DNA from: Xiphophorus maculatus
Taxonomy: Eukaryota; Chordata; Actinopteri; Cyprinodontiformes; Poeciliidae
Direction of reading: 5' to 3'
Length of the DNA stretch: 64,000 bases
Assembly (NCBI RefSeq): GCF_002775205.1
Contig: NC_036456.1
Coordinates: 24,131,968-24,195,967 of the forward strand
In this document: positions 896 through 54,683 of the stretch, piece after piece
Layout of the letters: every line of letters starts with the position of its first letter
Numbering within the stretch: position 1 is the stretch's first letter
Translations under genes and position numbers: made by a program
Notes under the pieces: model-generated
The model's input: only the letters and a program-made list of their open reading frames with translations
Databases searched by the model: none
Told to the model about the DNA's origin: nothing

Positions 896-1754
896 TATTT
901 TCAGGTATCAACAATCATTGAATCGATGAAATTCTCCTTCCATTGTCGCCACTTGAGTTATTGTAATCACTGCTTTATACAGTCAGTAAAAGCACACCAG
1001 TTTTTTATTTTGTTGTAATTTATGTCTTTACATGTCATTTTGTTGGCTAAGCCTCTAGTTTGTACTTGTGATGCTTCTGTGCTTTCTTGTTTGAAATCCT
1101 CTTCTCCATCTCTCCAGGCTTTCTCCATGCTGCAGTTTTAATTTTATAACCTGAGTTTAGGTGGTTTGATAACATTGTTATCTCGATTCTCCATGTTCTT
1201 TGCCACTTCAGCTGCTGAGTTGTGGACGTGTTTCATCCTCATAAGATTCCCTGAGATTAGCTGAGTTTAGGGTCTGGAAGTTGATCTTCTTTCCTCTCAA
1301 AACCCGACTTCAGTGTATTTAGACGTCACTGTTTCAGCACATCCAGTGGTAATTCTGGTCTAATATTACAGTTTTCCAATCCAGCATCAATCCTTCCTAT
1401 TGTCGGACCATTACTTAATCATTTCTTAGTCTGCAAGTTTCAATAGCTGAGATTAAAAAGCACTTTAGAGTTTTGATTTATTCTTTCTATCTGAGTATTT
1501 TATGTGTTGTATATTCTGTATCTAAAGAGAGAAAAGAAATTTTTTGGAATATTCACTAGGGAGATACTAGGATAGTGTTTGCTCACCCAGAAAAATTAAC
1601 TCAACTTTCATCTTGTTGAGTTAATTTTTCAAACTTAAATGTTTAAATTTTAGAATATTCAAAGGAAACCATGTTTAGATGCATCAATGGATTAAAATCA
1701 AATTTTGATCTTTGATTGATATTTCAAAGCTTTCATTTTTTTTCTTTTGTCCAG

Positions 1755-3064
1755 ATTTATCTAAAGAGGAGGTTCTCAATGAACCCAGCAACCAGGGGGA
1801 AAACTCCACTTTAGATCCAAAGAAACCAGAACATCTGCAGATAAAACAGGAACAAGAGGAACCAGAACCTCTGCTAGGAATACAGAAACAAGAGGAACCA
1901 GAACCTCTGCAGATAAAAAAGGAACAAGAAGAACCAGAACCTCTGCAGATAAAACAGAAACAAGAGGAACCAGAACCTCTGCAGAGAATACAGAAACAAG
2001 AGGAACCACAACCTCTGCAGATAAAACAGGAACAAGAGGAAACAGAACCTCAAGAGTTCAAAGAGGAAGAGAAGCAACTCTGCATCAGTCAGGATGAAGA
2101 GCATCTTGTGCTGAAACAGGAGACTGATGACATTTTGATGATGCCTTCTAAAGTGCAAAGAATCCACAATGAAACAGAACCACAGAGGAACCAACTCATC
2201 TCTCATGACTCTGCTGAGGATGACAACCAGGATCAGGAAGGAAGCAGTTCTGACGATCCAGAAAAAAAGAGAGATGAAGAACAGAGACAAAAAGAGAGAT
2301 GTCAGAAAAAGAAACAGCAGAAAAGTAAAACTGACAGTTCAAAACAAAAAAGGCACAAAAAAGCTCACCCAGACCAAAAATTACATTCCTGTAAAATTTG
2401 TAATAAAACCTTTTCTGGAAACGATACTCTGACTCGACACATGAAAATTCACACAGACAGAGAACAGTTCTCCTGTTCAATGTGTAGAAAACTATACAGT
2501 TCAAAGGACGCTTTAAAGAAACACATGAGATATCATCTTGATGTGCCTTACACATGTACGATCTGTAAAAAAGTATTTCCCAGTAAAAATGTTTTAATTG
2601 ATCACATGCAGACTCACATGGGTGAGAAGGGACATGCATGTGTGACCTGTGGAAAACATTTTGATTTCAAATGTAATTTAAATGCTCACATGAGGAGTCA
2701 CACAGGCGAGAAACCTTTTTCATGTACAATTTGTGGAAAAGAATTCAGTCGAAAAGGAGCTTTAAATTGGCACATGAGAATTCACACAGGCGAGAGGCCT
2801 TTTCCATGTACACGCTGTGACCAAAGGTTCCGCAGTAAACACAATTTAATCTGTCACATGAGGTCTCACACTGGTGAGAAGCCTTTTTCATGTAAGATCT
2901 GTGGAAAACACTTTGGTTACCAAGGTTATGTAAATATTCACAAGAGGATTCACACGGGTGAGAAGCCTTATTCATGTAAGATCTGTGGAAAAAGTTTCAC
3001 TCAAACCTCTACTCTTTCTGTACACATTCAAACTCACAGGGAATTAAAACTTTATTCTGTGTGA
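1755..3064 (+). CDS. ZNF-1: C2H2 zinc-finger protein, main exon (exon 1 outside window)
   Basis: Second and last coding exon of a teleost C2H2 zinc-finger gene, probably a nuclear DNA-binding regulator. The acceptor is the pyrimidine tract ending at 1754; the exon opens in phase 1 and joins a 169-nt exon 1 that should lie left of base 1, giving about 492 residues. Order: DLSKEEVLNE joint, six 12-residue acidic units (LQIKQEQEEPEP type), the conserved [17 protein letters not shown] block, a basic stretch, then eight C2H2 fingers from about residue 267. It stops early: the TGA at 3062-3064 follows a one-base deletion relative to ZNF-6, and two more finger-like blocks (3065-3210) follow out of frame. 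A poly(A) signal AATAAA is at 3429-3434. The ATG at 1712 is intronic and is not the start. Confidence 0.85.
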
Positions 3065-3212
3065 TTTGTGGAAGACCTTTCCAGTTTAAATCTAATTTAC
3101 TTTTTCATATGAGAACTCACACAGGTGAGAGACCTCTCTTGTGTGACGTGTGGAAAAAGTTTCACTCGGATAAGCAATTTCACTGTTCACATGAAAGAGC
3201 ACATGGCATAAT
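3065..3212 (+). pseudogene. Relic C-terminal fingers of ZNF-1
   Basis: Directly after the ZNF-1 stop the sequence still encodes, in a shifted frame, CVICGRPF-like and VWKKFH-like finger remnants ending in a HMKEHMA-type tail. These match the last two fingers of ZNF-6 (33790-33963). They are no longer translated because of the one-base loss near 3058 and a further frameshift. The same relic follows ZNF-2 at 10186-10333. Confidence 0.75.
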
Positions 3213-3639
3213 TTGAACCTTGAATATCAATATTCTCAGTAACTTGCTGTTTGAAAGCGCAGTAATTATAGCTGGGTGACATTTTGTAAATGTAGCAGCT
3301 TTGTTAAAAAAACATTTCAAATGGATTTAGCTGAAATACTTTGAAGAAATAATCTTATTCTGGTAGTTTTAGATTTTCATTTAAATGTTTATTTTTAAGT
3401 GAGATTGTCTCCACATTAATTGTTTGTTAATAAAAGTGAATTTGAATGCATTAAGAGTCATTGTAGATTTGTTGCACTTGTACTTTGTTTTACTTTAATG
3501 ATTTTGGTTAGTGGATAGATGCTAGCTGTTACTGAATGCAATGTTTGCGCTGGTAGGTTACAAACTGATTGGAAACATACTTGTCTATATTTGAATCTGA
3601 ATATCAGTTTTTTATTATGTTGTCTTTGTTGCTCAAAGA

Positions 3640-4062
3640 ATAGTGTCGTTAATTTATAAATCACTGAACAACCTAGCACCACAATACATTAAAGAGCTGT
3701 TGTTGTCATAGCAACCCTCCAAGTCTTCTGGTTCTGGTCTGCTCTGCATCACCAGAACCAAACGGGGAGAAGCAGCATTCAGCTTCTATGCACCACAAAT
3801 CTGGAACAAACTTCCAGAAAACTGCAAAACAGCTGAAACACTGAGTGCCTCTAAATCTAAACTAAAGACCCACCTGTTTAGAGTTGTATTCGAAATGTAA
3901 TCAATAACGAATTTAATGATGTAACTTGACTGAGTGTCATGTTTTGATTGTTGATTCTATGTTGCATGACTTTGTGTTTTTGTGTTATGATGTAAACCTC
4001 TTTGAAATGCCTTGTTTGTGAAATGCGCTATACAAATAAAATTTGATTGATTTGATTCAGGA
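3640..4062 (+). mobile_element. L2-clade LINE C-terminal fragment
   Basis: A broken frame reads YKSLNNLAPQYIKELL, then FSFYAPQIWNKLPENCKTAE and LKTHLFRVVF. This is the familiar C-terminal end of L2/CR1-type reverse transcriptase proteins in fish. It is followed by a 3' end with AATAAA (4035-4040) and an ATTG-like tail. The 5' part of the element is absent, as usual for truncated LINE insertions. A duplicate is at 10762-11185. Confidence 0.7.
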
Positions 4063-5163
4063 CAAAAATAAACATTGTTGCTGAATCTCTGCTCTGTGTT
4101 TATTACCAGTATCTGTAATTTCCTGTAAATAAAACTGATGATCTTAAAGAATCGACCTGAAACTTCAAACTCATCAACTCTAAAAAAAAAAAAAAACCTG
4201 AAAACTGGATCAGGAACCAGGGAGGAACAGATGGGCTCTACTGTGGACTGCTGCTGTTTATATATATGATGGTTTTCCTGATTGACTTTGTTTCAAACTG
4301 AAGGTTTTATTCCAGTCTCTGTTTCTAGCCAAATCATTTACAGTTTCCATGAACGTCTGAAGCAGAATTCAAAGAGGCCGGGGTTGTAAGTATGTAAATC
4401 TATTCTGTCACACAGTCTTCTACTAAACAGACAAAAGAAAAAGACAATTATTGTGGTAAATAAACTTTATTATATCTGAAATTCAATCCAGATCATCAAT
4501 ACCTTTTCTATTATCCAAAGCATAAAAATCATATCAAAGAAAAACTGACAAAAAAAGACTTGGGTAAAAATTATAATTCACAGTAACTAAGAAGAATATG
4601 CAGATTTTTAAACAAAAAGGGAAAACATGTCAGATTTCATCATTATTTAGCACAATTTCCTTCCTCAATCAGAACCTTTCAGAAAAAAAAATGGTGGATG
4701 ATATTTAGATTCAAGTTTAGAAAACATTAGTACTCTCAAAGGGCCATTAATTTGTGACCCTACAAGCACATGCAGTAACAGGTAACATATCTATTTCATC
4801 CAATCATTAAAATAAACCAAATAAGAACAAAGGATAAACACAAAATAAAGACTCCAAAACGTTCCAAGTCTAAATCTGAAAGCATTAAATCCGTTGCTCC
4901 TTTAAGAAGTTACAAATATCTCACTTATCCTCTTTAAAAAAAAATAATGCTAACATAAAACTGCTAGAATAAAGTGAATGTTGAAGTGTTTTAACTAAAT
5001 CTCCCATTTGAAATGCGTTTTAAACAAAGCTGCTACAATTAAATATGCAATACAGTTTTAATTACTCTGTTTCCAAACAGCAAATTACTAAGAATTTTGG
5101 CACTTGAGGTTCACATTATGCCATCAAACTGAGTTTTCACGTGAACGGTTAAATTTATTTTTT
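4063..5163. other. 3' flank between convergent zinc-finger genes, copy 1
   Basis: No open gene is visible. The stretch holds a poly(A)/poly(T)-rich spacer, a short (TA)n tract at 4257-4268 that is the empty counterpart of the LINE target at 18394-18411, and near 5105-5163 the relic last finger and tail of the deleted minus-strand gene. Copy 2 carries the same layout at 11190-12241. Confidence 0.6.
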
Positions 5164-5468
5164 CTGCGATGCATCGACTGCAGTTTTCTTGCCGATCGCC
5201 GACCACCAGTCTTTAAAAAACCTGATATACCATTTTGAATTTTGGGCAACACCAATTTTTTTGTCTGAAATGTCAGTAAATGTAGCAAGAAACTTGCTGA
5301 GCTGGCAACTGTAGAGTGACTATTGTGAATTACGAATGTGCAGACATAACTTTTGACTAATAGTCAAACCTCTCAACGGAGGGCAGAAGAGGACAGTCTG
5401 TGATTATCGGCTGATCACAGATCTCCAAAAATTAAGAAAAGTGACACTGATAAATCAGTGCATCCCTA
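5164..5468 (-). mobile_element. hAT-type MITE in relic zinc-finger exon, copy 1
   Basis: About 305 bp with imperfect terminal inverted repeats of the TAGGGATGCAC type, the hallmark of a common fish hAT-derived MITE. It is the same insertion as at 12242-12547 and 21453-21663, seated in the same codon of the minus-strand zinc-finger exon. In this copy almost all of the exon on the upstream side has been deleted. Confidence 0.75.
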
Positions 5469-5645
5469 CGTCTCACCTGTGTGAATTTTCATGTCAGCAG
5501 TAAAAATTGTTTTACGAGTGAAAACAGTGCAGTGCAGACACAATATCAATACAGTTTTGCTTTGGGTCGAAACGATACATGACGCCTCATTTATCCATCA
5601 CTACTTTAAACTGTCTCGTTAGTAAAACGTGAAGGTGTTTCGTAC

Positions 5646-5805
5646 CTATCCGGTGTAAAATTATCTTCGGTATCCGAGTAAAATCCATCAGTCTGCGCTG
5701 ATCCTCCATCTCTTCCTCCATCTTTACGTTGATTTCTTTCAATGTTTCTCCAGCAGGAGTTACCTGCTCGTTCATAAACTCCCTCTCGGGCTGAACTGAA
5801 GACAT
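5646..5805 (-). pseudogene. ZNF-3: orphan exon 1 of a gutted zinc-finger gene
   Basis: On the minus strand the exon reads [20 protein letters not shown] and continues to ILHRI, with an ATG at 5803-5805 and a good donor GTACG at 5641-5645. It is 160 nt, nine less than its paralogues, an in-frame loss after GET, so the frame is open. The large finger exon that should follow is gone: only one scrambled finger (about 5469-5535) and the MITE remain. Unspliced, the frame runs on to a stop at 5587-5589 and could give a 77-residue peptide (counting an upstream in-frame ATG). Function is doubtful. Confidence 0.75.
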
Positions 5806-5897
5806 TTCTATTGCAAACACGCAAATATTTACCTAAAACCGTCTTCAAATTACCTTCTAACAAAAGAAAGCTAAGCTACCGTGTACGTCGTGTAATT

Positions 5898-5962
5898 TCG
5901 TGTGTTCCACTGTGGCTGAACTGAAGAAACTGTAAACGACATTTAGTTCCGCTTTGAATTTT
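5898..5962 (-). promoter_or_regulatory. Conserved ZNF promoter box (ZNF-3, minus)
   Basis: About 95 bp upstream of the ZNF-3 ATG, the minus strand carries the block AATTCAAAGCGGAACTAAA followed by a core close to TTCTTCAGTTCAGCCACAGT and AACACACGAAA. The same block lies upstream of ZNF-2, -4, -5 and -6 and again at 34181-34260, so it is likely the family's proximal promoter. The function is inferred from conservation and position. Confidence 0.55.
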
Positions 5963-6113
5963 CGATGAGTTTCCTCTTTTTATAGTAAGTTATATTAAAT
6001 AAATTACACTATTTTGAAATTGAGTTATAAAAATAAATTAATATTTCAATAATATTTTAATTTACTAACTATAAATGTATATTAAGAGGTGAATCACAGC
6101 GGATCTTATCATT

Positions 6114-6152
6114 CGTTTACAGTTTCTTCAGGACAGCCACAGTGACGCACCC
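6114..6152 (+). promoter_or_regulatory. Conserved ZNF promoter box (ZNF-2, plus)
   Basis: CGTTTACAGTTTCTTCAGGA and CAGCCACAGTG match the family box. It faces right, head-to-head with the ZNF-3 box about 150 bp away, forming a divergent promoter. It lies about 110 bp upstream of the former ATG of ZNF-2. Confidence 0.5.
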
Positions 6153-6260
6153 GGAAAATGAAAACAGAGCACACAGGATAGAGTTGGTGCTTCTTTTGTT
6201 AGTCGGTTGTTTGAAGACGGGTTTGAGGTTTAGCTAAATATTTGAGTGTTTTCAGTAAAA

Positions 6261-6428
6261 ATCCACTCATTTTAAGCCTCAGAGAGAGTTTATCAACGAG
6301 CAGGTAACTCCTGCTGGAGAAACATTCAGAGTTTAAAGAAATCAACGTCAAGATGGAGGACAAGATGGAGTATCAGCACAGACTGCTGTTTTTTACCCGG
6401 ATACCGAAGATAATGTTACACCGGATAG
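6261..6428 (+). pseudogene. ZNF-2 exon 1, degenerate
   Basis: Clear match to the N-terminal exon of the family ([15 protein letters not shown] region, then ILHRI-like end and donor GTACG at 6429). It cannot encode the domain: the initiator is ATC instead of ATG (6261-6263), an in-frame TAA follows at 6273-6275, and two bases are missing after ACATTCA, which shifts the frame into another TAA. The splice donor is intact, so it could still act as an untranslated first exon. Confidence 0.8.
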
Positions 6429-6645
6429 GTACGAAACACTCTTAAATTTTACTCAGAAGAGTTAAAAACAAGTTAAAGACAGCTATAGAAAAGATAGGAA
6501 TTTTTTTAGGGCCGATCCTGAACTCAAACTAAAAGACTCAGAAATATCAAATCAGTTCCCGCCGGAAATAAATAAATAAATACTTAGAATGATTAACTCT
6601 GACCTCGACTATTTACTATTCATTATATAATATCAAAACCTGGGA

Positions 6646-6776
6646 ACGCCTCGGGATTCCCCCGGAAGAGCTGGAAGAAGTGGCCGGGGAGAGGGAAGTC
6701 TGGGCCTCCCTTCTGAGGCTGCCACGCCCGCGACCCGACCCGGATAAACCGGAGAAAATGGATGGATGGATGTAAC
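6646..6776 (+). mobile_element. RTE (Rex3/Expander-like) 3'-end fragment
   Basis: The stretch matches the last 130 bp of the nearly complete RTE element at 44831-48224, including the codons for the LGTPRDSPGG...ISG-type tail, and ends in a GGAT repeat. It is 5'-truncated and lies in the intron of ZNF-2, outside the duplicated unit. Confidence 0.75.
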
Positions 6777-8812
6777 ATCAAAATTATAGTTTGTTCGTGA
6801 CTCCCTCATCTCTACTTCACCAGTTTAAGAAAGCACTGGTTAAAGTTTGCGCTTAAAATGATTAGTTTTACTAACTAACTAAAATTATTAGTTTATAATT
6901 AGTTTTATATTTTGTGCTTAATCTTGTATTTCATTATTGTTTAGATTCGTTCTCTGTTAAATTATGGCTCATATTTTGTGTTCTCTTTTATTTGTATAAA
7001 TGTAGAACTAAGTCTGTTAAGTGTTGATTGAAAAATGAATATTGAGCATATTAAAACTCATGTAATTTTAACAGTGGGTAAGTTGTTTTAAAGCTATAGA
7101 CTCAAAATTAATGCCAGGAACAATGACAACAATGGTTCTCGGCTTCTGAACAGAGAAAACAAATGGTTTGAAGGAAGGATGAAAGACTCTTTGCCAAAAA
7201 CAGAAAAAATCAACTCTGAACTGAGGGTGAAGGTTACAACTTTATCTGCAAATTTGTTTTGAACCTAATTCAAAAGAAATTGCATGAGCATTCCCGCCAT
7301 TCCACTCCAAACAAAAGAACCAAAGAAACCAGGTGGGGGATGAGCAGGTCGTTGATTTACATCTGACTGGGAATGAACTGAAGAGGATGGACCTCCATGA
7401 ATTAAAAAGAGAAAAAGAGTCAGGTTACAACACCAAGTTGCTGAACTGCAAAACTCCTGCATGGGAGTCAATAATGGAGGTAAAAGTATTTGTGCCCTGT
7501 AACCGAGAAGTTTAAGTTTCCAAGAAAAATCCTTTGAGTTTTTTAATTGTAGATTTTCTTTCATATTTCACAAATACAAAACAGCAGTTACCTCTTCAAA
7601 TTCTTAACAACAAGACACAAATCATAGTCTTTGAGTCACACTTTAAAAAAATGTCTTAGTTTTGTCCCTAAATATCCAAAACAAATGGTGGAAAAGAATT
7701 TTGCACACTTGTGTCAAGAAAAATTAATTTGCGAATATTTATCACTCACTACATTTAATATCTTCAATCTGCTGCAGTTTAAAATGTTTCTTCTTTTAGC
7801 TCAGGTAGAATGACCAAAATAATTGAAACACATTTCAATAATGTTCAGTTATGTTTATTTGTATCCACATTTCAGCCACAAGAAAGTTCAAAGTGCTTAA
7901 CATCATAAAAATACAAAGTCATAAAAACACACAGTGAATAATTGAAACATTATATTTTCAGGTATCAACAATCATTGAATCGATGAAATTCTCCTTCCAT
8001 TGTCGCCACTTGAGTTATTGTAATCACTGCTTTATACAGTCAGTAAAAGCACACCAGTTTTTTTATTTTGTTGTAATTTATGTCTTTACATGTCATTTTG
8101 TTGGCTAAGCCTCTAGTTTGTACTTGTGATGCTTCTGTGCTTTCTTGTTTGAAATCCTCTTCTCCATCTCTTCAGGCTTTCTCCATGCTGCAGTTTTAAT
8201 TTTATAACCTGAGTTTAGGTGGTTTGATAACATTGTTATCTCGATTCTCCATGTTCTTTGCCACTTCAGCTGCTGAGTTGTGGACGTGTTTCATCCTCAT
8301 AAGATTCCCTGAGATTAGCTGAGTTTAGGGTCTGGAAGTTGATCTTCTTTCCTCTCAAAACCCGACTTCAGTGTATTTAGACGTCACTGTTTCAGCACGT
8401 CCAGTGGTAATTCTGGTCTAATATTACAGTTTTCCAATCCAGCATCAATCCTTCCTATTGTCGGACCATTACTTAATCATTTCTTAGTCTGCAAGTTTCA
8501 ATAGCTGAGATTAAAAAGCACTTTAGAGTTTTGATTTATTCTTTCTATCTGAGTATTTTATGTGTTGTATATTCTGTATCTAAAGAGAGAAAAGAAATTT
8601 TTTGGAATATTCACTAGGGAGATACTAGGATAGTGTTTGCTCACCCAGAAAAATTAACTCAACTTTCATCTTGTTGAGTTAATTTTTCAAACTTAAATGT
8701 TTAAATTTTAGAATATTCAAAGGAAACCATGTTTAGATGCATCAATGGATTAAAATCAAATTTTGATCTTTGATTGATATTTCAAAGCTTTCATTTTTTT
8801 TCTTTTGTCCAG

Positions 8813-35360: not shown

Positions 35361-38300
35361 CGTCTATCTAATCATATGCAGGATGCAATATAAGGAAAGA
35401 GGCAGCTGAAGTTCAAAAACTTAGAACTGAAAAGAGAGTAACTTATGCTGAGACAGTGAAACAGGTGAGAAGTAATGATAGTAATTTGAATGTAAGTCAG
35501 GAAAGGAAAGTAATGACAAATGATGATCAGGGAAATATTACGTTAGATAAATTAATTCCATTTCTTGCGTATATTATTAACTGTTCAGAACAAGCAAGAA
35601 ATAAAACTGAGAAGATTAAAATTATAGTGAAAGCAGCTACTAAATTTTTTAAGGTAAAAGATTTGTCTTGGGGAAAAAATAGATGATGAGCTAAGACAAG
35701 GTGAAGGGTCAGCTGATTTTGAAGCGTCTCAAACAATTTCATAATTTTAATAGTACAGTGGAATGCTCGGAGTTTAATAGCAAATGGTCAAGAATTTAAA
35801 GGTTTCATTAGTAATTTAAATCCTAAACCGGATATAGTATGTGTTCAAGAAACTTGGCTCAAGCCATCATTACAGTTTAGTATTAACGGTTATTCAGTTC
35901 TACGTAAAGACAGGAAAAGTAAAAATGGAGGAGGGTGTGCAATTTTTATCAAAACTAACATAAAATTTATTCAAATACCAATACATATAGTGTCAGACTT
36001 AGAAATTATTGTTGCTGAAGTATGGACAAATGAAGGGAGTGTTAAAATAATTAATTTCTATAACCCTTGTAAGCAATTAGAAAAATCAAAACTTGTAGCA
36101 GTCCTAAAAAATTGGAGAGTGAAAATGGTGTGGTGTGGGGATTTTAATGCTTATAGCACATTATGGGGTGATCAAGATAATTATAATGGAGAGATTGTAG
36201 AAGAGTTCATAGAAGAAAAAGGGTTGATTGTTTTAAATAATGGAGAAGGCACTCGGGTGGATATTGTTAGAGGCAAAGAGTCTGCTATTGACTTGACATT
36301 GGTGTCTCAATCTATTGCTGATGTATGCAGATGGGAAATAATGAAAGAAAATACAATGGGGAGTGATCATTACCCAATAATCATTAATATAGGGGTAGTT
36401 ATGAAGGAGGAACAGTTAAAAGTTGAGGGAAGGTGGAAGTTTGGGAGAGCAAATTGGGGTATGTTTGGAGTTATGAGTGAAGAATGCTTGGAAAAGGTAG
36501 ATATAAATAATCCAATTAATGAGGTTAATTCTGAAATTAGCAAGGGTATAATAAATTCGGCCAAATTAAGTATTCCCAAAAGTAATGGGAATAGAAAAAA
36601 AAAAGTTCCTTGGTGGACAATAGAATGTTCAATAGTTATTAAACAGAGGAACAAAGCGTTTAAGATATTGAAAAAAATGATAAGTTTTCAGAATCTGATA
36701 AATTATAAAAGAAAACAGGCAGAAGTTAGAAGAGTTATTAAAAGTGCTAAAAGAAATTATTGGAGAAAGTATTGTGAATCATTGGGGAAGAATTCAGCAT
36801 TAGATAAAGTCTGGAATACTATTAAAAAAATGTCAGGGAATTCAAAATAACTTTTTTTTCAATAATAAAAGAGAATGGAAATAATATTATAGATAATAAA
36901 AGTAAGGCTGGGGTATTAGGGAAGATGTTTGCTAAGATACATAGTACAGAGAATCTAAATAATAGGGAAAAATTAGGACGTGAAACTACCAAACAGTTGA
37001 ATATAGTATTAATTCAAAATGATGAGGATTATGATGATTATATTAACAAGGAATTTTCCTTAGCTGAATTAGATAAAGTGATGAGGAATTCTAGAAAATC
37101 GACACCTGATAATGATCAAATCACTTATAATATGATGAGTAATCTTAGTGTTGTGAGTAAAGAAAATTTTTTAAAACTGTTTAATAAAAGTTGGGAGGAA
37201 GGAGTTTTGCCTGATAACTGGAAAGAAGCTATTATTATTCCTATATGCAAACCTGGGAAAGATCCATGTTTAACTGAAAGTTATAGACCAATAGCCCTAA
37301 CGTCGTGTTTAGGTAAAGTTATGGAGAAAATGGTAAATAATAGGTTAGTATATTTCTTAGAATCCAAGGGGAAGATAAAGGAATACCAATTTGGATTTAG
37401 GAAAGGAAGAAGTACGATTGATCCAGCAATATGTTTGGAACATGAAGTTAGACGAGCTCAAGTTACTAAAGAGAGTGTGATAGCAGTGTTCTTGGATGTG
37501 GAAAAGGCTTATGATATGTTGTGGAAAGAAGGGTTGCTGATTAAATTAAAACTAACAGGTATAAAGGGTAAAATGTTTAGATGGATTAAAAATTTCTTAA
37601 CTGAAAGAAAGATAAGAGTGAAAATAGAAGGGGAAATTAGTTCAGAGTATCAAGTGGAAAATGGAAGTTTATAAAGTTCAAATTATTTCGGTAGTTGTCT
37701 CTCCTGCCATCCCACCATGGGTTTTAGAACAGGCTGAAGTTGACTTAATATTATTGGATAAGGGAAGAGAGATGGAAAAGAATGAAGTGGAAAATTATAT
37801 TAATAAAGAATATTCAAAGTATATCCAAGTATATACAGACGCTTCAAAAATGTCAAATAATCAAGTAGGGATAGCATTTATTGCTCCAGATTTAAATGTT
37901 ATGGAAAATAAAAGAATTAGTGATAAACTAACAGTGTATACAGGTGAATTAATGGCAATTTTAATAGCCTTAGAATGGATAGAGGGAATAGGAAGAGGAA
38001 AGTTTGTAATTTGTTCAGATTCTAGTAGTGCATTAATTAGTATACAAGGAATGAAATCGGAAGTTAGGCAAGATATTGTAGAGGATATAGTTCAGATAAT
38101 TTTCAGGGTTAAGAAGAAAGGATCTCAGATTAAATTAATTTGGATTCCTGCTCACATCGGTGTTGTAGGAAATGAATTGGCAGATAGTTTTGCTAAGAGA
38201 GCCTCTAATAAGGAAATTGTTGAGTTAAATATTACAATAAATAGGAATGAGATAAAAAGTGTTGTTAAGGAGTACATGAAGGAAAAATGGCAAGAACAGT

Positions 38301-38690
38301 GGGATAGAGGAGAAAAAGGGAGATTTTATTATAAAATTCAAAAAAGAGTTGGGGGGTAAAGAAAAGGTAATAGGAATAGAAGGGAAGAAGATATTATTTC
38401 CAGAATCAGATTTGGGCACACAAGGTTAAATAGTACTCTTAAGTTAATTAATAAACACAGTACAGGTTGTTGTGAATATTGTGGAGAGATGGAAACAATA
38501 CAGCATGTATTTTTAGAATGCAATAAGTATGTAAGGGAGAGAGAGATGTTGGTTAATGAGTTGAATAATTGTAAATTAGATTTAGAATAAATATTTCAGA
38601 AATCATCAGGAGATATAATATTTGAGAGTGTTTTTAGATTTCTAAGAAGAACGGGTATTATGGGGAGGGTATAAGCGTGTGATTCATACT
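35361..38690 (+). mobile_element. I/Nimb-like non-LTR retrotransposon, copy 1 (internally deleted)
   Basis: Longest of three copies. Visible in order: end of the first protein (KRVTYAETVKQV, to 35686); an apurinic endonuclease domain from about 35740 (VQWNARS, VCVQETWL, WCGDFNA, GSDHYPI; open frame 35990-36850); a frameshift near 36850; reverse transcriptase blocks 36925-37674 (YRPIALTSCLGKVMEK, YQFGFRKGRST, VFLDVEKAYD); then a deletion that removes the GTPQGS and FADD catalytic blocks; RNase H 37661-38359 (YTDAS, YTGELMA, CSDSSSAL, IPAHIGVVGNELAD); and a terminal CCHC motif after two nonsense codons. The 3' end, GGCGGTAATGCACC then an AAG-rich tail, runs into the ZNF-7 promoter region. The APE-RT-RNase H order points to the I/Nimb group. 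Inactive. Confidence 0.8.
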
Positions 38691-38824
38691 CCAACCTGGA
38701 AGGTGGCGGTAATGCACCTGTAAGTTGTTTGCCAGCCGCCATAAAACAAGAAGAAGAAGAAAAAGAAGGCGGGGAAGATAAAATCAGAGCACACGGGCTA
38801 GCCTTAGCTTTTCCTTTGTTAGAC

Positions 38825-41800
38825 AAGTACACCTCGCTGCAGCAAACAGAATGGGGCGGGGTCGGACAACTGTCAGTCTCATACCTTATATGGAAATGGT
38901 GGGGACGGACCACTGTCCGTCTCATACCTTATATGGAAATGGTGGGGACGGACCACTGTCCGTCTCATACCTTATATGGAAATGGGACTATTTCATTCCG
39001 GAAATGAAGGGGGCGCTAGTGACACTATTTCCTGTACCGATCGTGTTATAATAATTATACTAATAATAACGTATTTTATTTGACAACGCCTTTTAAAACA
39101 CCCAAGAACACTTTCAACATTAAAAATACAAATTAAATAGTAAAAAAATGGCTACAAAACGTGATATGTCACGTGGTATGTCTGTCACGTGGTAAGTCAC
39201 TTTTTTATTTCCAAATCTTTATTAAACCTTTATTTAAAATTATATTAGTAACAAACAATCTAGAATAAGCAATAAGGAAACATTATGGAGATGTATTTAT
39301 GTATCCTTAAACCCAATCTATCTCAAACAAAAGTAATAAAACATGAATCAAATCAATATTTTGGAGACAAATGTACATTACATTAAGAGCACATTTATCC
39401 ATTCATTAATTATCATGAATTATCCCTATAGTTGGGTCATGAGGGCTGCTGACCCTGGACATATCGCCAGTCCGTCGCAGATTAAGAAAACAGATATAAA
39501 CAAATGAAGTTCAAATATATTTTGATGTTGTGAATGGTACTCTTAAAATAAATAAGTTAAAATCTAAAATATAATAGCCTCTGGCTTATTAAATAAGAAC
39601 TAGATGTTAAAGAGGTTTGGTCTGTAAAACATTTAGTCAACAATTTTGGCCAACTTAGTACGTCCATTCACAGAGCACTTTTGTTGTTTATTTGCCAAAT
39701 ATTTTTCTTATTATTCACATTGTGAATATAATTTACAAACAAACCAAAGGACTTTTGAACTTCTAACAAGTGAAGTTCAGAAAACTAGAATATTTTTGGT
39801 TGCAGGTGACCTGGCTCAGCTATTATCATTGTTTACCATAATGTCTCATTGGAAACTTTTGCTATAAGGCTCCAGTTCAACCAGTAAACTGATTGGTGTC
39901 CCACTATTCCATTTATAAATTCCATATCAATTCTATCAATTGCAATCGATTCATAACATAAAGCCCTTAAATATCCAATTGTTGCAAAACCCAAAGAGAT
40001 TCATTTAAAACTTTAAATGTAGCTTCAGCCTGGAAAGACTCACACAGAGAGAAAGTAGGTTTTAGAAAGTTTATTTGACAAGAAATAATCTTTGGGGCTC
40101 GGACCCCGGCAGTAGACACTGCACTGGTAACTGCCAGAGAGAATGATCTTTTTTCTATATGAAAACCTTTTTGAATAAAGTCACTGGTTACATAAATTAA
40201 ACCAGTGTGTAAATTCTAACTATAACTGTCTTCATCTCACCTGCTCAGCTAATCACCTGATCATGTGTCTCCATCCCAGCCTAACGGCGCCGGGCTCATC
40301 TCCTCCACCCTTCATAAAGTCCGGCTTGATGTGTGCAACTGCTCCTCATCTGAGCTTCCATCACCTCCACCCCGACTACACCTTCGCTCTGCTCGTTTAA
40401 TCTTGTTTGTATCTGAACAATATGTTTCTGTATGTGCTTGCTTTATTACAAAAAAACCCCAAGTTGATTCTGACTGTTAAAACATAAACAACTTGGCTGT
40501 ATGTCAGGTTTGTAAAAAAATTTGTATTGATTCCAGTCATTGTTCAAAATGTATAGGAAACATTGTATTTACACATATAAAATATTGCAAGTTATTAGCT
40601 TTGCTTGCATTTAAAATTTTTAAAACAAGGTTATCCTATTGCTAAACAACGCTGTTCCAATATATTTACAACTACTTTATTGGTTCTACTCTCTCCAACA
40701 AATTACAGCCACAATGTAACTTTGTGTGGAAACGGCACCATTTCTGTGAAAACTAAATAATGTAAATCAACTGAGCTACAACAAAAGGAACATTCAAAAA
40801 TGTAAATAATATTGAAAGAACACATTATTAAAAAGGATGACTGCACAAGTCAAAAGGCAAATATTATTTAGCAGAAATGATTTAAAATGGCATGTCACAA
40901 AAAAAACGAACAATGTGTGACAACTGAAATGTGTGAAAGACTGTGGAAAGCAACTAATATTCTCCTTGCATTCAGTATTGACAGTCAGTGCAGTGTCCAG
41001 GTCGGCCATCACAGTAGTAACCAGGGTACTCTCCTCGTCTTCCGTTGCCGGTGAAGCCCACAGTCTTTATATTACCGGTTGCAGGAAAAACACGTTACAA
41101 CCGCAAAAGGAATCCGGTTTTCTGCCTTGAATGTTTTTTGAAAATTTGCCCCAGTTGATCTCACCTGTTAATGAAAAATCGATTTCATGTAGTTGAAATC
41201 TAATTTCACATGTTTTAGGTGAAAAAAGTCAAAGGTCCTTACCATCCAGCCAAGCAAAGTGAGTCTTCTTCCTGAAAACTGGCTCAGACACAACGGCTTC
41301 AAAGCACTTGCAGGTCAATGCCAAGGTGAGGTAAGCTGAGTCTCCCTGTGCTGGTATCACCTCCTGGAGAACAGCTTCAAGAACATTCAGAGGCATCTGA
41401 AAAAAACAAAAAAACAAACAAAATAAAAAATCACATTGCACATTATGATCAGTAAAACAGTAGTTAATAATAGCCATTTCACCAAATACGTTGTTACTCT
41501 TACTAGTGTAGTTTATTGCAGTTACTTACTAAAACTATATTGAAGTAGTGCTACTCGTCGTTAGAGTATCACATCTGGGTACTACACCCAACTATAATGG
41601 CAGCTGTTAGTTTATAAAATATATTAGACTTTCCAGAAATTTAACATTGGTGTACAAAACATATTTAAAAAAGATCAACCTTTAAAAATAAAAGAGAAAC
41701 ACTAGAAAACTGGTATGTAAAAAATATTTTATATTTTTCAAGTGTAGTTATACATACCGTTATGTTGAACCATAGCAGTTTGTGCTAAATGGTTCTGTAG

Positions 41801-42355
41801 CTTGTATGAGCAAAGGGGACAGAAATATTTATGTTCATGTTGCAAATAGATACGTGGATCTGTATAATGAAAATAAAAAACAGTTTGAGCATAAAATACA
41901 TTTCTCAATTATACATGTTATCTACTTTTCTATTTTTATCTAATGGTGCCCAGCGGGATAATAATTAGCTATGCTACATGCTAAAGTTAGCCTTCCCCTG
42001 TATGAATTACGAATTTCACTAGTTTACAGCTGTTAATTGTATTTTCAACCTAATCTAGAAAAGTGTATTGATTTACTATGTGAAAAAATTTAAGAAGGTA
42101 AAAATACCTTTTGTTGACTTTGTGAGTTTTGCATTGTTGATCGTGTGCCGAACACCAGTGGAAAAACCTCTCAAACTTCTTTCTTTCTTCTTCTGTTCCT
42201 CTTAACTCCGCGTCTTAAGGTATTTATACTAGTGATTATGAAAATAGCGCCCCCTTCATTTCCGGAATGCAATAGTCCCATTTCCAAATAAGGTATGGGA
42301 CTGACGGAAAGGTCCGTCCCCGCCCCATTCTGTTTGCTGCAGCGAGGTCCTTCTC
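38825..42355 (-). mobile_element. 3.53-kb terminal-inverted-repeat transposon carrying a decayed multi-exon gene
   Basis: Terminal inverted repeats of roughly 130-200 bp contain CCTCGCTGCAGCAAACAGAA, GGGGCGGGG, an ATACCTTAT(A/T)TGGAAATG block and a GGAAATGAAGGGGGCGCTA block. The flanks are TTGTTAGAC at 38816-38824 and 42356-42364, and the paralogue upstream of ZNF-8 has one TTGTTAGAC (54619-54627) and no element, proving insertion. An 8-9 bp duplication fits hAT-, P- or Merlin-like elements; I see no transposase, so it may be non-autonomous. The left end has three copies of a 43-bp subterminal unit, the right end one. The interior 39060-40900 shows no gene. Confidence 0.85.
40972..42134 (-). 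pseudogene. Cargo gene of the TIR transposon: finger-like and F-box-like exons
   Basis: Minus-strand exon candidates with consensus splice sites: A 42108-42134 (ATG, MQNSQSQQK, donor GTATTT); B 41758-41859, frame reading PRIYLQHEHKYFCPLCSYKL with a trailing H, a C2H2-like unit; C 41243-41396, reading MPLNVLEAVLQEVIPAQGDS then AYLTLALTCKCF and KKTHFAWLDG, resembling an F-box; D 40972-41164, reading EINWGKFSKNI, later in a shifted frame GRRGEYPGYYCDGRPGHCTD and stop. A TATA-like AGTATAAATACC at about 42222-42233 sits beside the terminal repeat. The A-B and B-C phases do not match and D has a frameshift, so it looks dead here. I recognise the style of multicopy fish hypothetical proteins but cannot name it. 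Confidence 0.6.
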
Positions 42356-43138
42356 TTGTTAGACGGTGGTTTGAAGAAGAGTTTGAGTTTAAGCTAAATA
42401 TTTCCGTGTTTTCAGTGAAAATGTCTTCAGTTCCGCCTCAGAGAGAGTTTATCAACGAGCAGGTAACTCCTGCTGGAGAAACATTCACAGAGTGGAAAGA
42501 AATCAACGTTAAGATGGAGGAAGAGATGGAGGATCAGCGCAGACTGATGGATTTTACCCGGATACCGCAGATCATCTTACACCGGATTGGTACGAAACAC
42601 TTTCATGTTTTACTGATTAATCAGCTTAAAGAGAGTTTTTAGACAGATAAATAATCGTTGTGTTCGGTAACCTATTTAAAGAATCCGCTCAAATTGTAAA
42701 TATTAAGTAGAAGTAGAAAATTCCTGAAGAAATTTAACCGGGGCCTGCCAAAGTGGGCCCGTTAGTTTGGACCCAGCAATGCTATTCAATGCTAACAATT
42801 AGCATCAATGCTAAGCTTAGCTAAATAGTAATCAGTAGCCGGTGGAGAGTCACAAGCATGTTGACTAACATGGACTTGCACCATTCAGTTTGTTAAAATT
42901 AGTGTATAATCTAAAATGAGCCAAAATGCTAATGTAAACCTAAATGCTGCCAGTAGCATGTGGGCTATCATTAGAATGTTGTCTTACATGGACTTCCTAC
43001 ATTCAGTGTCCTAAACATGGATAATAATTAAGAAAAATATCTAAAATCTTATTTTAGGGAAAAAGCTAATGCTTGCGCAGCAAGGCAGCGCCCTAACCTG
43101 AGAGGAAAAGATAATGCAGGCTAATATTATTGCACTGT

Positions 43139-44830: not shown

Positions 44831-47800
44831 CAACCTCTCCTTGGGCTGCCACCTTATCGTGGTGGAGGGGTTTGAGTGCTCCAATGATCCTAGGAGCTAT
44901 GCTGTCTGGGGCTTCATGCCCCTGGTGGGGTCACCCAAGGCAGACAGGTCCTAGGTGAGGGACCAGACAAAGCGGAGCCCGAAGACCCCAATGACGGATA
45001 AAAACATTGGACTTGGCCTTCCCTCGCCCGGACGCGGGTCACCGGGGCCCCACTCTGGAGCCAGGGCTGGAGGGGGGGCACGATGGCGAGCGTCTGGTGG
45101 CCGGGCTTTAACCCATGGAGCCCGGCCAGGCTCAGCCCGAAGAGGAAACATGGGTCCCCCCTCCCATGGGCCCACCACCTGTGAGAGGGGCCAAAGGGGT
45201 CGGGTGCAGTGTGGGATGGGTGGCGGCAGAGGGAGGGGACCCTGGCGATCCGATCCTCGGTTGCAGAAGCTGGCTCTTGGGACGTGGAATGTCACCTCTC
45301 TGGTGGGGAAGGAGCCGGAGCTAGTGTGTGAGGTCGAGAGGTTCCGGCTAGAAATAGTCGGTCTCACCTCGACGCACGGCTCTGGTTCTGGAACCAGCCT
45401 CCTTGAGAGGGGCTGGACATACTTCCACTCTGGAGTTGCCCAAGGTGAGAGGCGTCGGGCAGGAGTGGGCATACTTGTTGCTCCCCATCTCGGCGCCTGT
45501 ACGTTGGGGTATACTCCGGTGAACGAGAGGGTAGCCTCTCTCCGCCTACGGGTGGGGGGACGGGTCCTGACTGTAGTTTGTGCTTACGGGCCGAACGACA
45601 GTTCAGATTACCCACCCTTTTTGGAGTCCTTAGAGGGGGTACTGGAGAGTGCTCCTCCGGGGGACTCCCTTGTTCTACTGGGGGACTTCAACGCTCACGT
45701 GGGCAATGACAGTGAGACCTGGAGGGGCGTGGTTGGGAGGAACGGCCCCCCCGATCTGAACTCGAATGGTGTTCTGTTGTTGGACTTCTGTGCTTGTCAT
45801 GGATTGTCCATATCGAACACCATGTTCAGGCATAAGGGTGTTCATATGTGCACTTGGCACCAGGACACCCTAGGCCGCAGTTCGATGATCGACTTTGTCG
45901 TCGTTTCATCGGATCTGCGGCCGTATGTCTTGGACACTCGGGTGAGGAGAGGTGCGGAGCTGTCCACTGACCACTACCTGGTGGTGAGTTGGCTCCGGTG
46001 GTGGGGGAGAAAGCCGGTCAGACCTGGCAGGCCCAAACGTGTTGTGAGGGTCTGCTGGGAACGTCTGGCGGAATCCCCTGTGAGACGGAACTTTAACTCC
46101 CATCTCCGGCAAAACTTTGAACACGTCCCGGAGGAGGTGGGGGACATGGAGTCTGAGTGGACTGTGTTCCGTGCCTCCATTGTCGAGGCGGCCGGTCGGA
46201 GCTGTGGCCGCAAGGTTGTCGGTGCCTGTCGCGGCGGCAACCCTCGTACCCGTTGGTGGACACCTTCGGTGAGGGATGCCGTCAGGCTGAAGAAAGAGTC
46301 CTACCGGGCCTTTTTGGCCTGTGGGACTCCGGAAGCAGCTGATGGGTACCGGCAGGCGAAGCGGCATGCGGCTCGGGTGGTTGCTGAGGCAAAAACTCGG
46401 GCGTGGGAGGAGTTTGGAGAGGCCATGGAGAAAGACGTCCGTACGGCTTTGAGGCGATTCTGGTCCACCATCCGGCGTCTCGGGGGGGGGGGGGGGGGGG
46501 GGGGGGAGAAGCAGTACGGCACCAACACTGTTTATAGTGGGGATGGTGTGCTGCTGACTTCTACTCGGGACGTTGTGGGCCGGTGGGCAGAGTACTTCGA
46601 AGACCTCCTCAATCCCACCAACATGCCTTCTATTGAAGAAGCTGAGCCTGGGGACTCTGGGTTGGGCTCTCCAATCTCTGGGGACGAGGTCGCCGAGGTG
46701 GTTGAGAAGCTCCTCGGTGGCAAGGCTCCGGGGGTGGATGAGATCCGCCCGGAGTTCCTTAAGGCTCTGGATGTTGTAGGGTTGTGTTGGCTGACGCGAC
46801 TCTGCAATATCGCATTGACATCGGGGGCAGTTCCCCTGGACTGGCAGACCGGGGTGGTGGTCCCCCTGTTCAAAAAGGGGGACCGGAGGGTGTGCTCCAA
46901 TTATAGAGGGGTCACACTCTTAAGCCTCCCTGGCAAGGTCTATTCAGGGGTCCTGGAGAGGAGGGTCCGTCGGATAGTCGAACCTCGGATCTAGGAAGAG
47001 CAGTGTGGTTTTCGTCCTGGTCGTGGAACACTGGACCAGCTCTACACCCTCGGCAGGGTCCTGGAGGGTGCATGGGAGTTCGCCCAACCAGTCTACATGT
47101 GTTTTGTGGACTTGGAGAAGGCGTTCGACTGTGTCCCTCGGGGAGCCCTGTGGGGGGTTTTCCGGGAGTATGGGGTACCGGGCCCTTTGATACGGGCTGT
47201 CAGGTCCCTGTATGACCGGTGTCAGAGTCTGGTCCGCATTGCCGGCAGTAAGTCGGGCTCGTTTCCGGTGAGAGTTGGACTCCGCCAGGGCTGCCCTTTG
47301 TCACCGATTCTGTTCATTACTTTCATGGACAGAATTTCTAGGCGCAGCCAAGGTGTTGAGGGGATCCGATTTGGTGGCCTTAGGATCTCATCTCTGCTTT
47401 TTGCAGACGATGTGGTCCTTTTGGCTTCATCAGATCGTGATCTGCAGCTCTCGCTGGAGCGGTTCGCAGCCGAGTGTGAAGCGGCCGGGATGGGTATCAG
47501 TGCCTCCAAATCCGAGGCCATGGTCTTGAGCCGGAAAAGGGTAGAGTGCCTTCTCCGGGTCAGGGGGGGTGTCCTGCCCCAAGTGGAGGAGTTCAAGTAT
47601 CTCGGGATCTTGTTCACGAATGAGGGAAGAAGGGAGCGGGAGATCGACAGGCGGATTGGCGCAGCGTCTGCTGTCAAGCGGGCGCTGTACCGGTCCGTCG
47701 TGGTGAAGAGAGAGCTGAGCCAAAAAGCGAAGCTCTCGATTTACCGGTCGATCTACGTTCCCACCCTCATCTATGGTCATGAGCTTTGGGTCATGACCGA

Positions 47801-48224
47801 AAGAACGAGATCGCGGATACAAGCGGCCGAAATGGGTTTTCTCCGTAGGGTGGCTGGGCTCTCCCTTAGAGATAGGGTGAGAAGCTCAGTCATCCGGGAG
47901 GGAGTCAGAGTAGAGCCGCTGCTCCTTCACATCGAGAGGAGCCAGTTGAGGTGGCTCGGGCATCTGGCCAGGATGCCTCCTGGACGCCTCCCTGGTGAGG
48001 TGTTCCGGGCACGTCCCACCGGGAGGAGGCCCTGGGGAAGACCCAGGACACGCTGGAGGGACTATGTCTCTCGGCTGGGAACACCTCGGGATTCCCCCGG
48101 AGGAGCTAGAAGAAGTGGCTGGGGAGAGGGAAGTCTGGGCCTCCCTTCTGAAGTTGCTACCCCCGCGACCCGACCTCGGATAAGCGGAAGAAGATGGATG
48201 GATGGATGGATGGATGGATGGATG
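44831..48224 (+). mobile_element. RTE-clade (Rex3/Expander-like) retrotransposon, near full length
   Basis: One frame from the ATG at 44955 to the stop at 48240-48242 is broken only by a TAG at 46992-46994, where a C-to-T change would explain it (CAG before GAAGAGCAGTG). Domains: apurinic endonuclease ([38 protein letters not shown]), reverse transcriptase ([25 protein letters not shown], then CGFRPGRGT, FVDLEKAFDCVPR, GLRQGCPLSPILF, catalytic FADD near 47400), a C-terminal domain ending LGTPRDSPGG, and a GGAT tail typical of fish RTE elements. A 125-bp GC-rich leader precedes the frame. A run of 25 G (46482-46506) encodes polyglycine and may be mis-sized. GC content and codon use contrast sharply with the AT-rich host, and the element looks young. 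Confidence 0.9.
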
Positions 48225-48297
48225 TTTTCCCTTAACATATAATTACCCAGTAATATTTTTACTTTTACTGTCTACTTAATATCTTTTTATACAAAAA

Positions 48298-51788: not shown

Positions 51789-53002
51789 TGTGCGGTGAGG
51801 TTCATAGCTGGTGAGGCACTGCCTTATGATGTATAAATACAGACATCATGCATGTTATTGTTTAGGTACAGACATTTTGCGCATGCATACAACGCTGGAG
51901 GGCAAAAAGACAATTCTTTTACATGTCTTCCATAGCTGCGTTTACTAGATGTAACTTAGAAATGTAGGTATTATGGGTTGTTGTTATGTTGCTGTACAGT
52001 GTTTTAAGATCTTGTTCAATGTGCCCCTTTTTAACTTTGAACCCCTGCCCCTTCAAAGGTCTCTGCACGGCCCTGTTCATATGTATGGTAAGCTTTATTA
52101 TTTTTTACCCCCTAGCTTGGTTGTCCCCAGAGTGCTAATGTTGTTAGCAGCTAACTTAGTGTTGAGTCCTGGACAGAAAATATGTTTATTCAGTGGGACT
52201 TCCATGCTAGAAAAAAAGCTGAATAAATTAAATATAACCTACCCAGCCATACAGTCTTTTCCTGACCCCCATCAGAATTTCTTGCAGCATCCGAGTCACA
52301 TGTCTGAAGCCCAGAAATTGAACGCTGTGATGTTTGTTTGAAAGGAAGAAAACTCAAATATTATTGAGATTACTGAGATCTCAATCAAAATCACATTTTG
52401 ATTGAGAGCTAACAGCAGAGAGATTTTTATTTTCCCAAATGTTTGTTCCTCAGAAGTCATTGTTAAAATTCTGCTGTGAAAATGTGTTTGTACATGCTCT
52501 ACACAACCAGGTTCATAACAGTATATTGGTATTTTATACAGCTGCAAAATGACTTTTGTTTCTTAGCATTGAGGAGCTTCAGTTAAACACATTTTGTTCC
52601 TTTGGGAGGCTTCACAGTGTTTTCCTCTGTTATTTTATATTTCTAACATATTTTCTTTGTATGTTTTTAAATGAGTGATTAATAACATCTCTTTGCTCAG
52701 GTACATGTATGATGATACAAGCAAAATAATTACTTTGTCTTTGTGGCTTTAATTAAAGTTATGTCTTCTTCTTACATCTTGTCTCTTCAGTGACCTTTCA
52801 TGTTTTCACTTCTTTCTATGGAAACATGAACCTTTTTTCACAAGATTCTGTTATTATTAATATTTTCAGGTCAAAACAACATTTCACTGTGTTCCTCTAA
52901 AATATATGTAGTCATTCAGTGTTTAACTTTAAAACTGAATCACAACCTACAAAACTACAACTTGATATAGTTATATAGTTTATAGTATAGTATAGTTTAT
53001 AG
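51789..53002. other. 3' flank of ZNF-7 up to the tandem junction
   Basis: No gene. Sequence is nearly identical to 62074-63290 after ZNF-8. It ends in a TATAG-rich stretch (about 52968-53002) joined directly to LINE sequence. Confidence 0.75.
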
Positions 53003-54520
53003 TATAGTTTTGCCTGATAACTGGAAGGAAGCTATTATTATTCCTATATGCAAACCTGGGAAAGATCCATGTTTAACTGAAAGTTATAGACCAATAGCCC
53101 TAACGTCGTGTTTAGGTAAAGTTATGGAGAAAATGGTAAATAATAGGTTAGTATATTTCTTAGAATCCAAGGGGAAGATAAAGGAATACCAATTTGGATT
53201 TAGGAAAGGAAGAAGTATGATTGATTCAGCAATATGTTTGGAACATGAAGTTAGACGAGCTCAAGTTACTAAAGAGAGTGTGATAGCAGTGTTCTTGGAT
53301 GTGGAAAAGGCTTATGATATGTTGTGGAAAGAAGGGTTGCTGATTAAATTAAAACTAACAGGTATAAAGGGTAAAATGTTTAGATGGATTAAAAATTTCT
53401 TAACTGAAGGAAAGTTAAGAGTGAAAATAGAAGGGGAAATTAGTTCAGAGTATCAAGTGGAAAATGGAAGTTTATAAAGTTCAAATTATTTCGGTAGTTG
53501 TCTCTCCTGCCATCCCACCATGGGTTTTAGAACAGGCTGAAGTTGACTTAATATTATTGGATAAGGGAAGAGAGATGGAAAAGAATGAAGTGGAAAATTA
53601 TATTAATAAAGAATATTCAAAATATATCCAAGTATATACAGATGCTTCAAAAATGTCAAATAATCAAATAGAGATAGCATTTATTGCTCCAGATTTAAAT
53701 GTTATGGAAAATAAAAGAATTAGTGATAAACTAACAGTGTATACAGGCGAATTAATGGCAATTTTAATAGCCTTAGAATGGATAGAGGGAATAGGAAGAG
53801 GAAAGTTTGTAATTTGTTCAGATTCTAGTAGTGCATTAATTAGTATACAAGGAATGAAATCGGAAGTTAGGCAAGATATTGTAGAGGATATAGTTCAGAT
53901 AATTTTCAGGGTTAAGAAGAAAGGATCTCAGATTAAATTAATTTGGATTCCTGCTCACATCGGTGTTGTAGGAAATGAATTGGCAGATAGTTTTGCTAAG
54001 AGAGCCTCTAATAAGGAAATTGTTGAGTTAAATATTAAAATAAGTAGGAATGAGATAAAAAGTGTTGTTAAGGAGTACATGAAGGAAAAATGGCAAGAAC
54101 AGTGGGATAGAGGAGAAAAAGGGAGATTTTATTATAAAATTCAAAAAAGAGTTGGGGGGTATAGAAAAGGTAATAGGAATAGAAGGGAAGAAGATATTAT
54201 TTCCAGAATCAGATTTGGGCACACAAGGTTAAATAGTACTCTTAAGTTAATTAATAAACACAGAACAGGTTGTTATAAATATTGTGGAGAGATGGAAACA
54301 ATACAGCATGTATTTTTAGAATGCAATAAGTATGTAAGGGAGAGAGAGATGTTGGTTAATGAGTTGAATAATTGTAAATTAGATTTAGAAGAAATATTTC
54401 AGAAATCATCAGGAGATATAATATTTGAGAGTGTTTTTAGATTTCTAAGAAGAACGGGTATTATGGGGAAGGTATAAGCGTGTGATCCCTACTCCAACCT
54501 GGAGGGTGGCGGTAATGCAC
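53003..54520 (+). mobile_element. I/Nimb-like LINE, copy 2 (3' half, internally deleted)
   Basis: Starts abruptly at PDNWKEAIIIPICKPGKD of the reverse transcriptase, directly after the TATAG stretch. It shares with copy 1 the exact internal deletion that removes the catalytic region (GGAAGTTTATAAAG at 53466). The RNase H frame 53464-54477 is open to the element's natural end, including the CCHC block CYKYCGEMETIQHVFLECNK. The 3' end again runs into the promoter of the next zinc-finger gene. Confidence 0.8.
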
Positions 54521-54683
54521 CTGTAAGTTGTTTGCCAACCGCCATAAAACAAGAAAAAGAAGAAAAAGAAGGCGGGGAAGATAAAATCAGAGCACACGGG
54601 CTAGCCTTAGCTTTTCCTTTGTTAGACGGTGGTTTGAAGAAGAGTTTGAGTTTAAGCTAAATATTTCCGTGTTTTCAGTGAAA

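Follow-up and report, generated by a model that had tools for sequence, protein, structure and literature searches.

An internally deleted, gene-like transposon that is very probably a non-autonomous relative of Zisupton

The window, the whole 64-kb stretch of DNA that we analysed, contains a transposon with a set of gene-like exons inside it (Table 1). This element is very probably a non-autonomous derivative of a Zisupton-like (KDZ-associated) cut-and-paste transposon that has lost its middle. Full-length transposons with ends of the same kind carry a gene that finishes with these exons, so the cargo is not a captured host gene. The sequence-only reading had offered two interpretations, a non-autonomous element that captured a gene or a kind of transposon that itself encodes such a protein. 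The second one fits; of the first, non-autonomy fits and a captured host gene does not.

Table 1. Features of the element in the window
Feature	Position	Strand	Basis or remark
Left target-site duplication TTGTTAGA, 8 bp	38816..38823	.	8-bp length from other copies
Non-autonomous element, very probably Zisupton-like	38824..42355 (3,532 bp)	- (strand of remnant gene)	Copies elsewhere end at identical bases; empty site
Left inverted end	38824..39018	+	Includes three tandem units with 43-bp spacing (38855-38985)
CxC7 exon (exon 22 of the full-length gene)	40972..41164	-	Interrupted by frameshifts and one stop
F-box-like exon (exon 21 of the full-length gene)	41243..41396	-	Open
Deletion junction	41407..41426	.	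Low complexity; alignment to full-length relative
Exon 2 remnant (CPLC finger)	41758..41859	-	Out of frame
Exon 1 remnant (ATG, 9 codons)	42108..42134	-	
TATA-like box	42221..42228	-	Upstream of exon 1; also in full-length relative
Right inverted end	42245..42355	-	
Right target-site duplication TTGTTAGA, 8 bp	42356..42363	.	Following base C is a chance match
Empty target site	54619..54626	+	In duplicated flanking unit

Results

Element boundaries and target site

Terminal inverted repeats, described earlier for the window copy, were found there, in copies elsewhere in the genome and in a full-length relative. Those of the window element are about 110 bp long, and their arms are complementary at 93% over 61 nt and at 97% over 37 nt. 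The two ends are those of a single element, not of two unrelated ones. TTGTTAGAC is present at both 38816-38824 and 42356-42364. The flanking direct repeat reported before is thus real, and its length is 8 bp, not 9: because other copies show 8-bp duplications, we set the start of the element at the C at 38824 and read the window duplication as TTGTTAGA. Flank alignment bore out the exact empty site at 54619, to which the two flanks of the element are 97.7% and 97.0% identical over 309 and 300 columns, respectively. C2H2 zinc-finger open frames also occur in the window, where they form a duplicated cluster, as do long open frames at 35723-38359, 44955-48242 and 52986-54477 that by eye resemble LINE endonuclease/reverse transcriptase. 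The first and last of these frames flank the filled and the empty sites and are parts of a duplicated zinc-finger and LINE unit.

Copies found elsewhere in the genome share the end points of the window copy. Among 13 short copies with both ends read, seven, including the window copy, have 8-bp duplications; those elsewhere are GCGGTTGC, AACAGAGC, CAGGAATC and GTTTGCTT, as well as GTTCGGTC and GGTTCGAC, which lie after one extra left-end terminal unit. No duplication was found in the other six (L011, L018, L025, L026, L027 and L033), several of which have extra or nested end pieces. The 13 copies do not include a second L026 entry, two L024 entries and L019, whose end pairs are incomplete, or L013, in which an end is interrupted and the left flank is identical to that of L020. 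Additional terminal units of about 10 bp (CAAGTACACC-like) were seen beside the element ends in L011, L020 and L037.

Full-length relatives and their gene

A genome search with CxC7 gave five matches from 38 scored candidates, all of them open frames. Identity among these loci, which are located on five chromosome-sized contigs, is 99.7-99.9% over 3.2 kb. They belong to full-length copies which are about 77% identical to the window element and lie between ends like its own. The sequence-only reading had suggested looking for an autonomous relative with the same ends. The full-length type has matching asymmetric ends, and all five copies are flanked by 8-bp duplications (TTTCTGTT on C21, GCTCTACC on C7, TAATGATT on C16, CACGCCTT on C3 and GTCTCAGC on C2). 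The termini of short and full-length elements match as CAAGTACAC(C/T)TCGCTGCAG and GAGA(A/G)GG(A/T)C(C/T)TCGCTGCAG. The C7, C16 and C21 copies share an identical, open transposase exon (exon 9), which is broken in the C2 copy and interrupted in the C3 copy; an older relative on C8 also has this exon open, with 90% identity. At C21:24074004-24088120 (L013, L057, L052 and L058) the young full-length element is inserted in the right inverted end of an older short copy, flanked by the 8-bp duplication given above for C21.

The C21 copy, 10,785 bp long, is the sole full-length copy that was read entirely. Its 22 exons with AG/GT borders join in phase and without a stop to encode 1,374 aa, in a model hand-built from splice signals and open frames, in which single borders may be off. 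The gene starts with finger exons, contains CxC4, a transposase-like region and an Ulp1-type protease, and finishes with the F-box-like exon and the C-terminal CxC7 exon. CxC4 (66.4 bits, E 2.9e-18), Peptidase_C48 (the Ulp1-type protease; 27.8 bits, E 2.7e-6) and CxC7 (33.1 bits, around residues 1314-1372) score above their Pfam cut-offs, and the protease piece matches solved SUMO proteases with a best E of 2.4e-6. The F-box reaches 17.0 bits, under the cut-off of 20.5. The KDZ transposase profile PF18758 gave no match, with E values of up to 5 allowed, to the 1,164-aa portion of the model that was searched, a miss that does not amount to absence, and for this reason we file the elements as Zisupton-like and not as proven members. 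Searching the genome with PF18758 returned four matches, all outside these elements. These four KDZ transposase relatives over Pfam's cut-off (L053-L056, at C8:27824458, C7:27075231, C7:27076629 and C5:32161281) have stops in three of the four matches, and tblastn with the open frames of the full-length element found no match to them.

The remnant gene in the window copy

The window copy has minus-strand exons with splice signals, as read before, and these make no single reading frame here. Exon 2 is 102 nt long compared with 154 nt in the full-length relative and is out of frame with both exon 1 and the F-box exon. The CPLC finger-like unit is present in it, with a weak Pfam match (best 16.9 bits vs a cut-off of 27.5). 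The F-box-like exon is open and scores 12.5-13.3 bits; we call it 'F-box-like' because the scores in the window and in the full-length relative fall short of 20.5. A fold of this exon (52 aa, 20 sequences) contained five helices at a mean pLDDT of 70.1 and a pTM of 0.37, and Foldseek of the structure model against the PDB returned 0 matches. The Cys-rich tail corresponds to Pfam CxC7 (PF18866), with 35.3 bits (cut-off 27, E 1.2e-8) for a read-through joined across the breaks of an exon that carries frameshifts and a stop; a search of solved structures with the window read-through gave 0 matches. The TATA-like box noted beside one end is indeed there and also occurs in the full-length relative. 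No transposase is visible in the window copy, in agreement with the sequence-only reading, and the middle of the full-length relative has no match anywhere in the 64-kb window. A nested LTR had been suspected by eye at about 40018-40450. A repeat scan gave just two 4-bp chance repeats, and we take this stretch as transposon sequence because most of it aligns with the full-length element.

A short family with a shared deletion

Aligned in gene sense with the full-length relative, the window copy corresponds to its bases 1-972 and to everything from 8216 onwards; bases 973-8215 (7,243 bp) are absent. The deletion begins in intron 2 and stops in the intron that precedes the F-box exon, and its position is resolved to 20 low-complexity bases. 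We found the same junction spanned at 25 loci, window included. L022, L034, L041 and L047 retain other parts of the middle at 83-89% identity and seem to be left over from a full-length lineage of greater age; a fifth middle match, in L013, is the adjoining young full-length element.

The genome searched comprises 704,300,149 bases in 101 contigs, and 39 of its loci were taken for comparison. The element gave at least 168 matches, a lower bound because 40 of 515 candidate places were scored. Identity to the window copy over about 1 kb was 90.4-98.3% (mean 95.3%) for the 29 matches longer than 700 bases. The cargo exons were found at dozens of places and are thus not confined to one locus.

Some copies differ in structure. 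About 80 bases at 40325-40405 of the window are replaced by about 30 bases in many other copies, which suggests two subfamilies of the short element. L022 (C4:4847500-4852200) has about 12 tandem 43-bp units at its left end, compared with three in the window, and bears a different internal deletion. L069 (C21:22873463-22873809) is a 347-bp element with little beyond the two ends and a 7-bp flank match by eye; it is possibly a miniature (MITE-like) derivative. A single element end alone occurs at several other places.

Coding state and location of the exon pair

We compared the coding state of the cargo across the copies, dropping CxC7 rows that cover less than 90% of the exon. Of the 30 rows outside the full-length family, 29 have a CxC7 exon whose length shifts some of it out of frame, the exception being the longer relative L047, and 23 read the same stop. 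For this exon, other copies thus stay in frame in the five full-length elements and, with that one exception, not in the rest. For the F-box exon, 25 of the 30 rows that do not belong to the full-length family are open and typical. Of the other five, L027 contains a stop, the start differs in L019, and the ends differ in L016, L017 and L021. Distinct changes in 26 rows (L027 kept; FL, L016, L017, L019 and L021 left out) comprised 21 nonsynonymous, 10 synonymous and 1 stop, with a neutrality P of 0.44 and a null mean of 1.1 stops. Between the short family and the full-length copy, dN/dS was 0.23 (7 nonsynonymous and 9 synonymous changes). Because the changes within the short family fit neutrality while this ratio is low, the F-box exon seems to have been under constraint at first and to have drifted later, in the short family.

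To see whether the cargo always lies in this element, the genome was searched with the F-box plus CxC7 protein. From 92 scored candidates, this yielded 108 matches, of which 36 cover the F-box part. The cargo sits in element copies in 35 of these (five full-length copies, the C8 relative, the window and 28 others); the remaining match is at C13:27498507. No intact F-box plus CxC7 locus outside the elements was seen among the matches examined, which do not include C3:30059313 and C13:27498507. The match at C3:30059313-30059516 is a diverged CxC7-like sequence with 51% identity and one stop and perhaps represents another Zisupton-like family.

Discussion

Origin of the short element

Most likely, a full-length Zisupton-like element lost its middle through a deletion from intron to intron and kept both ends. 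The deletion would have arisen in an older lineage that is sister to the young full-length family, and the CxC7 frame probably broke before or early in the spread of the short family. We infer that the short copies were moved in trans by transposase from full-length elements recognising their ends, because the ends and the duplication length are shared by short and full-length elements. The exons left in the short copies would be passengers.

We weighed this origin against three other explanations. A gene-like, multi-exon interior without transposase would also be expected of a Pack-TIR type element, i.e. a non-autonomous TIR transposon with captured exons of a host F-box gene, and such elements have been reported in animals (PMC8277862). 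This is very unlikely here, as the same exons, identically ordered, end the gene of full-length elements with matching ends, and no intact F-box plus CxC7 host locus was seen among the genome matches examined (C3:30059313 and C13:27498507 aside). A Mutator-like element, with a 9-bp duplication and long inverted ends, is the least probable: the ends are long and a 9-bp duplication is apparent in the window alone, but the other copies have 8-bp duplications and the full-length relative encodes KDZ-associated cysteine clusters. We consider it improbable, though slightly less so than capture, that the element is a satellite whose remaining F-box peptide is still functional, for instance in regulating transposition. 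In favour of such a peptide, 25 of the 30 rows that do not belong to the full-length family have an open and typical F-box exon; the fit of the short-family changes to neutrality (P 0.44), the CxC7 exon being out of frame in 29 of 30 rows and the CPLC exon being out of frame speak against it.

Our preferred explanation, deletion within a Zisupton-like element, points to an annotation trap, in which an intron-to-intron deletion makes a multi-exon transposon resemble a host gene inside a transposon. It also places the F-box::CxC7 pair inside a mobile unit, since five near-identical copies carry the pair between transposon ends. Tentatively, and with somewhat less than even confidence, we propose that the fish Zisupton-like protein regularly includes a functional F-box plus CxC7 end. 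If so, the transposon would combine an enzyme that removes SUMO with an adaptor for ubiquitin ligase, perhaps directed against host silencing proteins, and the zebrafish F-box::CxC7 genes would be trimmed Zisupton copies and not host genes that captured a domain.

Comparison with known systems

Internally deleted derivatives of DNA transposons that are mobilised in trans are a known kind of element. As in these, the ends are kept, the coding middle is lost and the short copies outnumber the full-length type found here. The window copy differs in that its first and last exons can still be recognised, since the deletion began and ended within introns.

The elements share several features with Zisupton/KDZ transposons. 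The Zisupton target-site duplication is given as 8 bp in PMC12730594, and 8-bp duplications flank 5 of 5 full-length and 7 of 13 short copies here. Terminal inverted repeats are present, and so are KDZ-associated cysteine clusters, with CxC4 and CxC7 in the full-length relative and CxC7 on the joined window read-through. Zisupton is described as having a multi-exon gene for a protein of up to about 1,400 aa (PMC9297572), the platyfish Zisupton G3KL21 has CxC7 near its C-terminus at residues 1333-1393, and one platyfish isoform has an F-box (PMC12062965, citing Bohne et al. 2012). The full-length element described here encodes 1,374 aa compared with those roughly 1,400, and CxC7 is C-terminal in both, a comparison that for G3KL21 uses the CxC7 position alone; in our splice model CxC7 lies about 19 residues earlier than in the published G3KL21 coordinates. 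The window copy differs from platyfish Zisupton in that the transposase is missing.

Three F-box::CxC7 genes in zebrafish are described as host genes in the same 2025 paper, which reports that no evidence was found for F-box capture by transposons (PMC12062965). The zebrafish genes resemble the exons analysed here in that an F-box exon is joined to a CxC7 exon. They differ in their setting, as here the pair ends a transposon gene and lies between inverted ends with target-site duplications.
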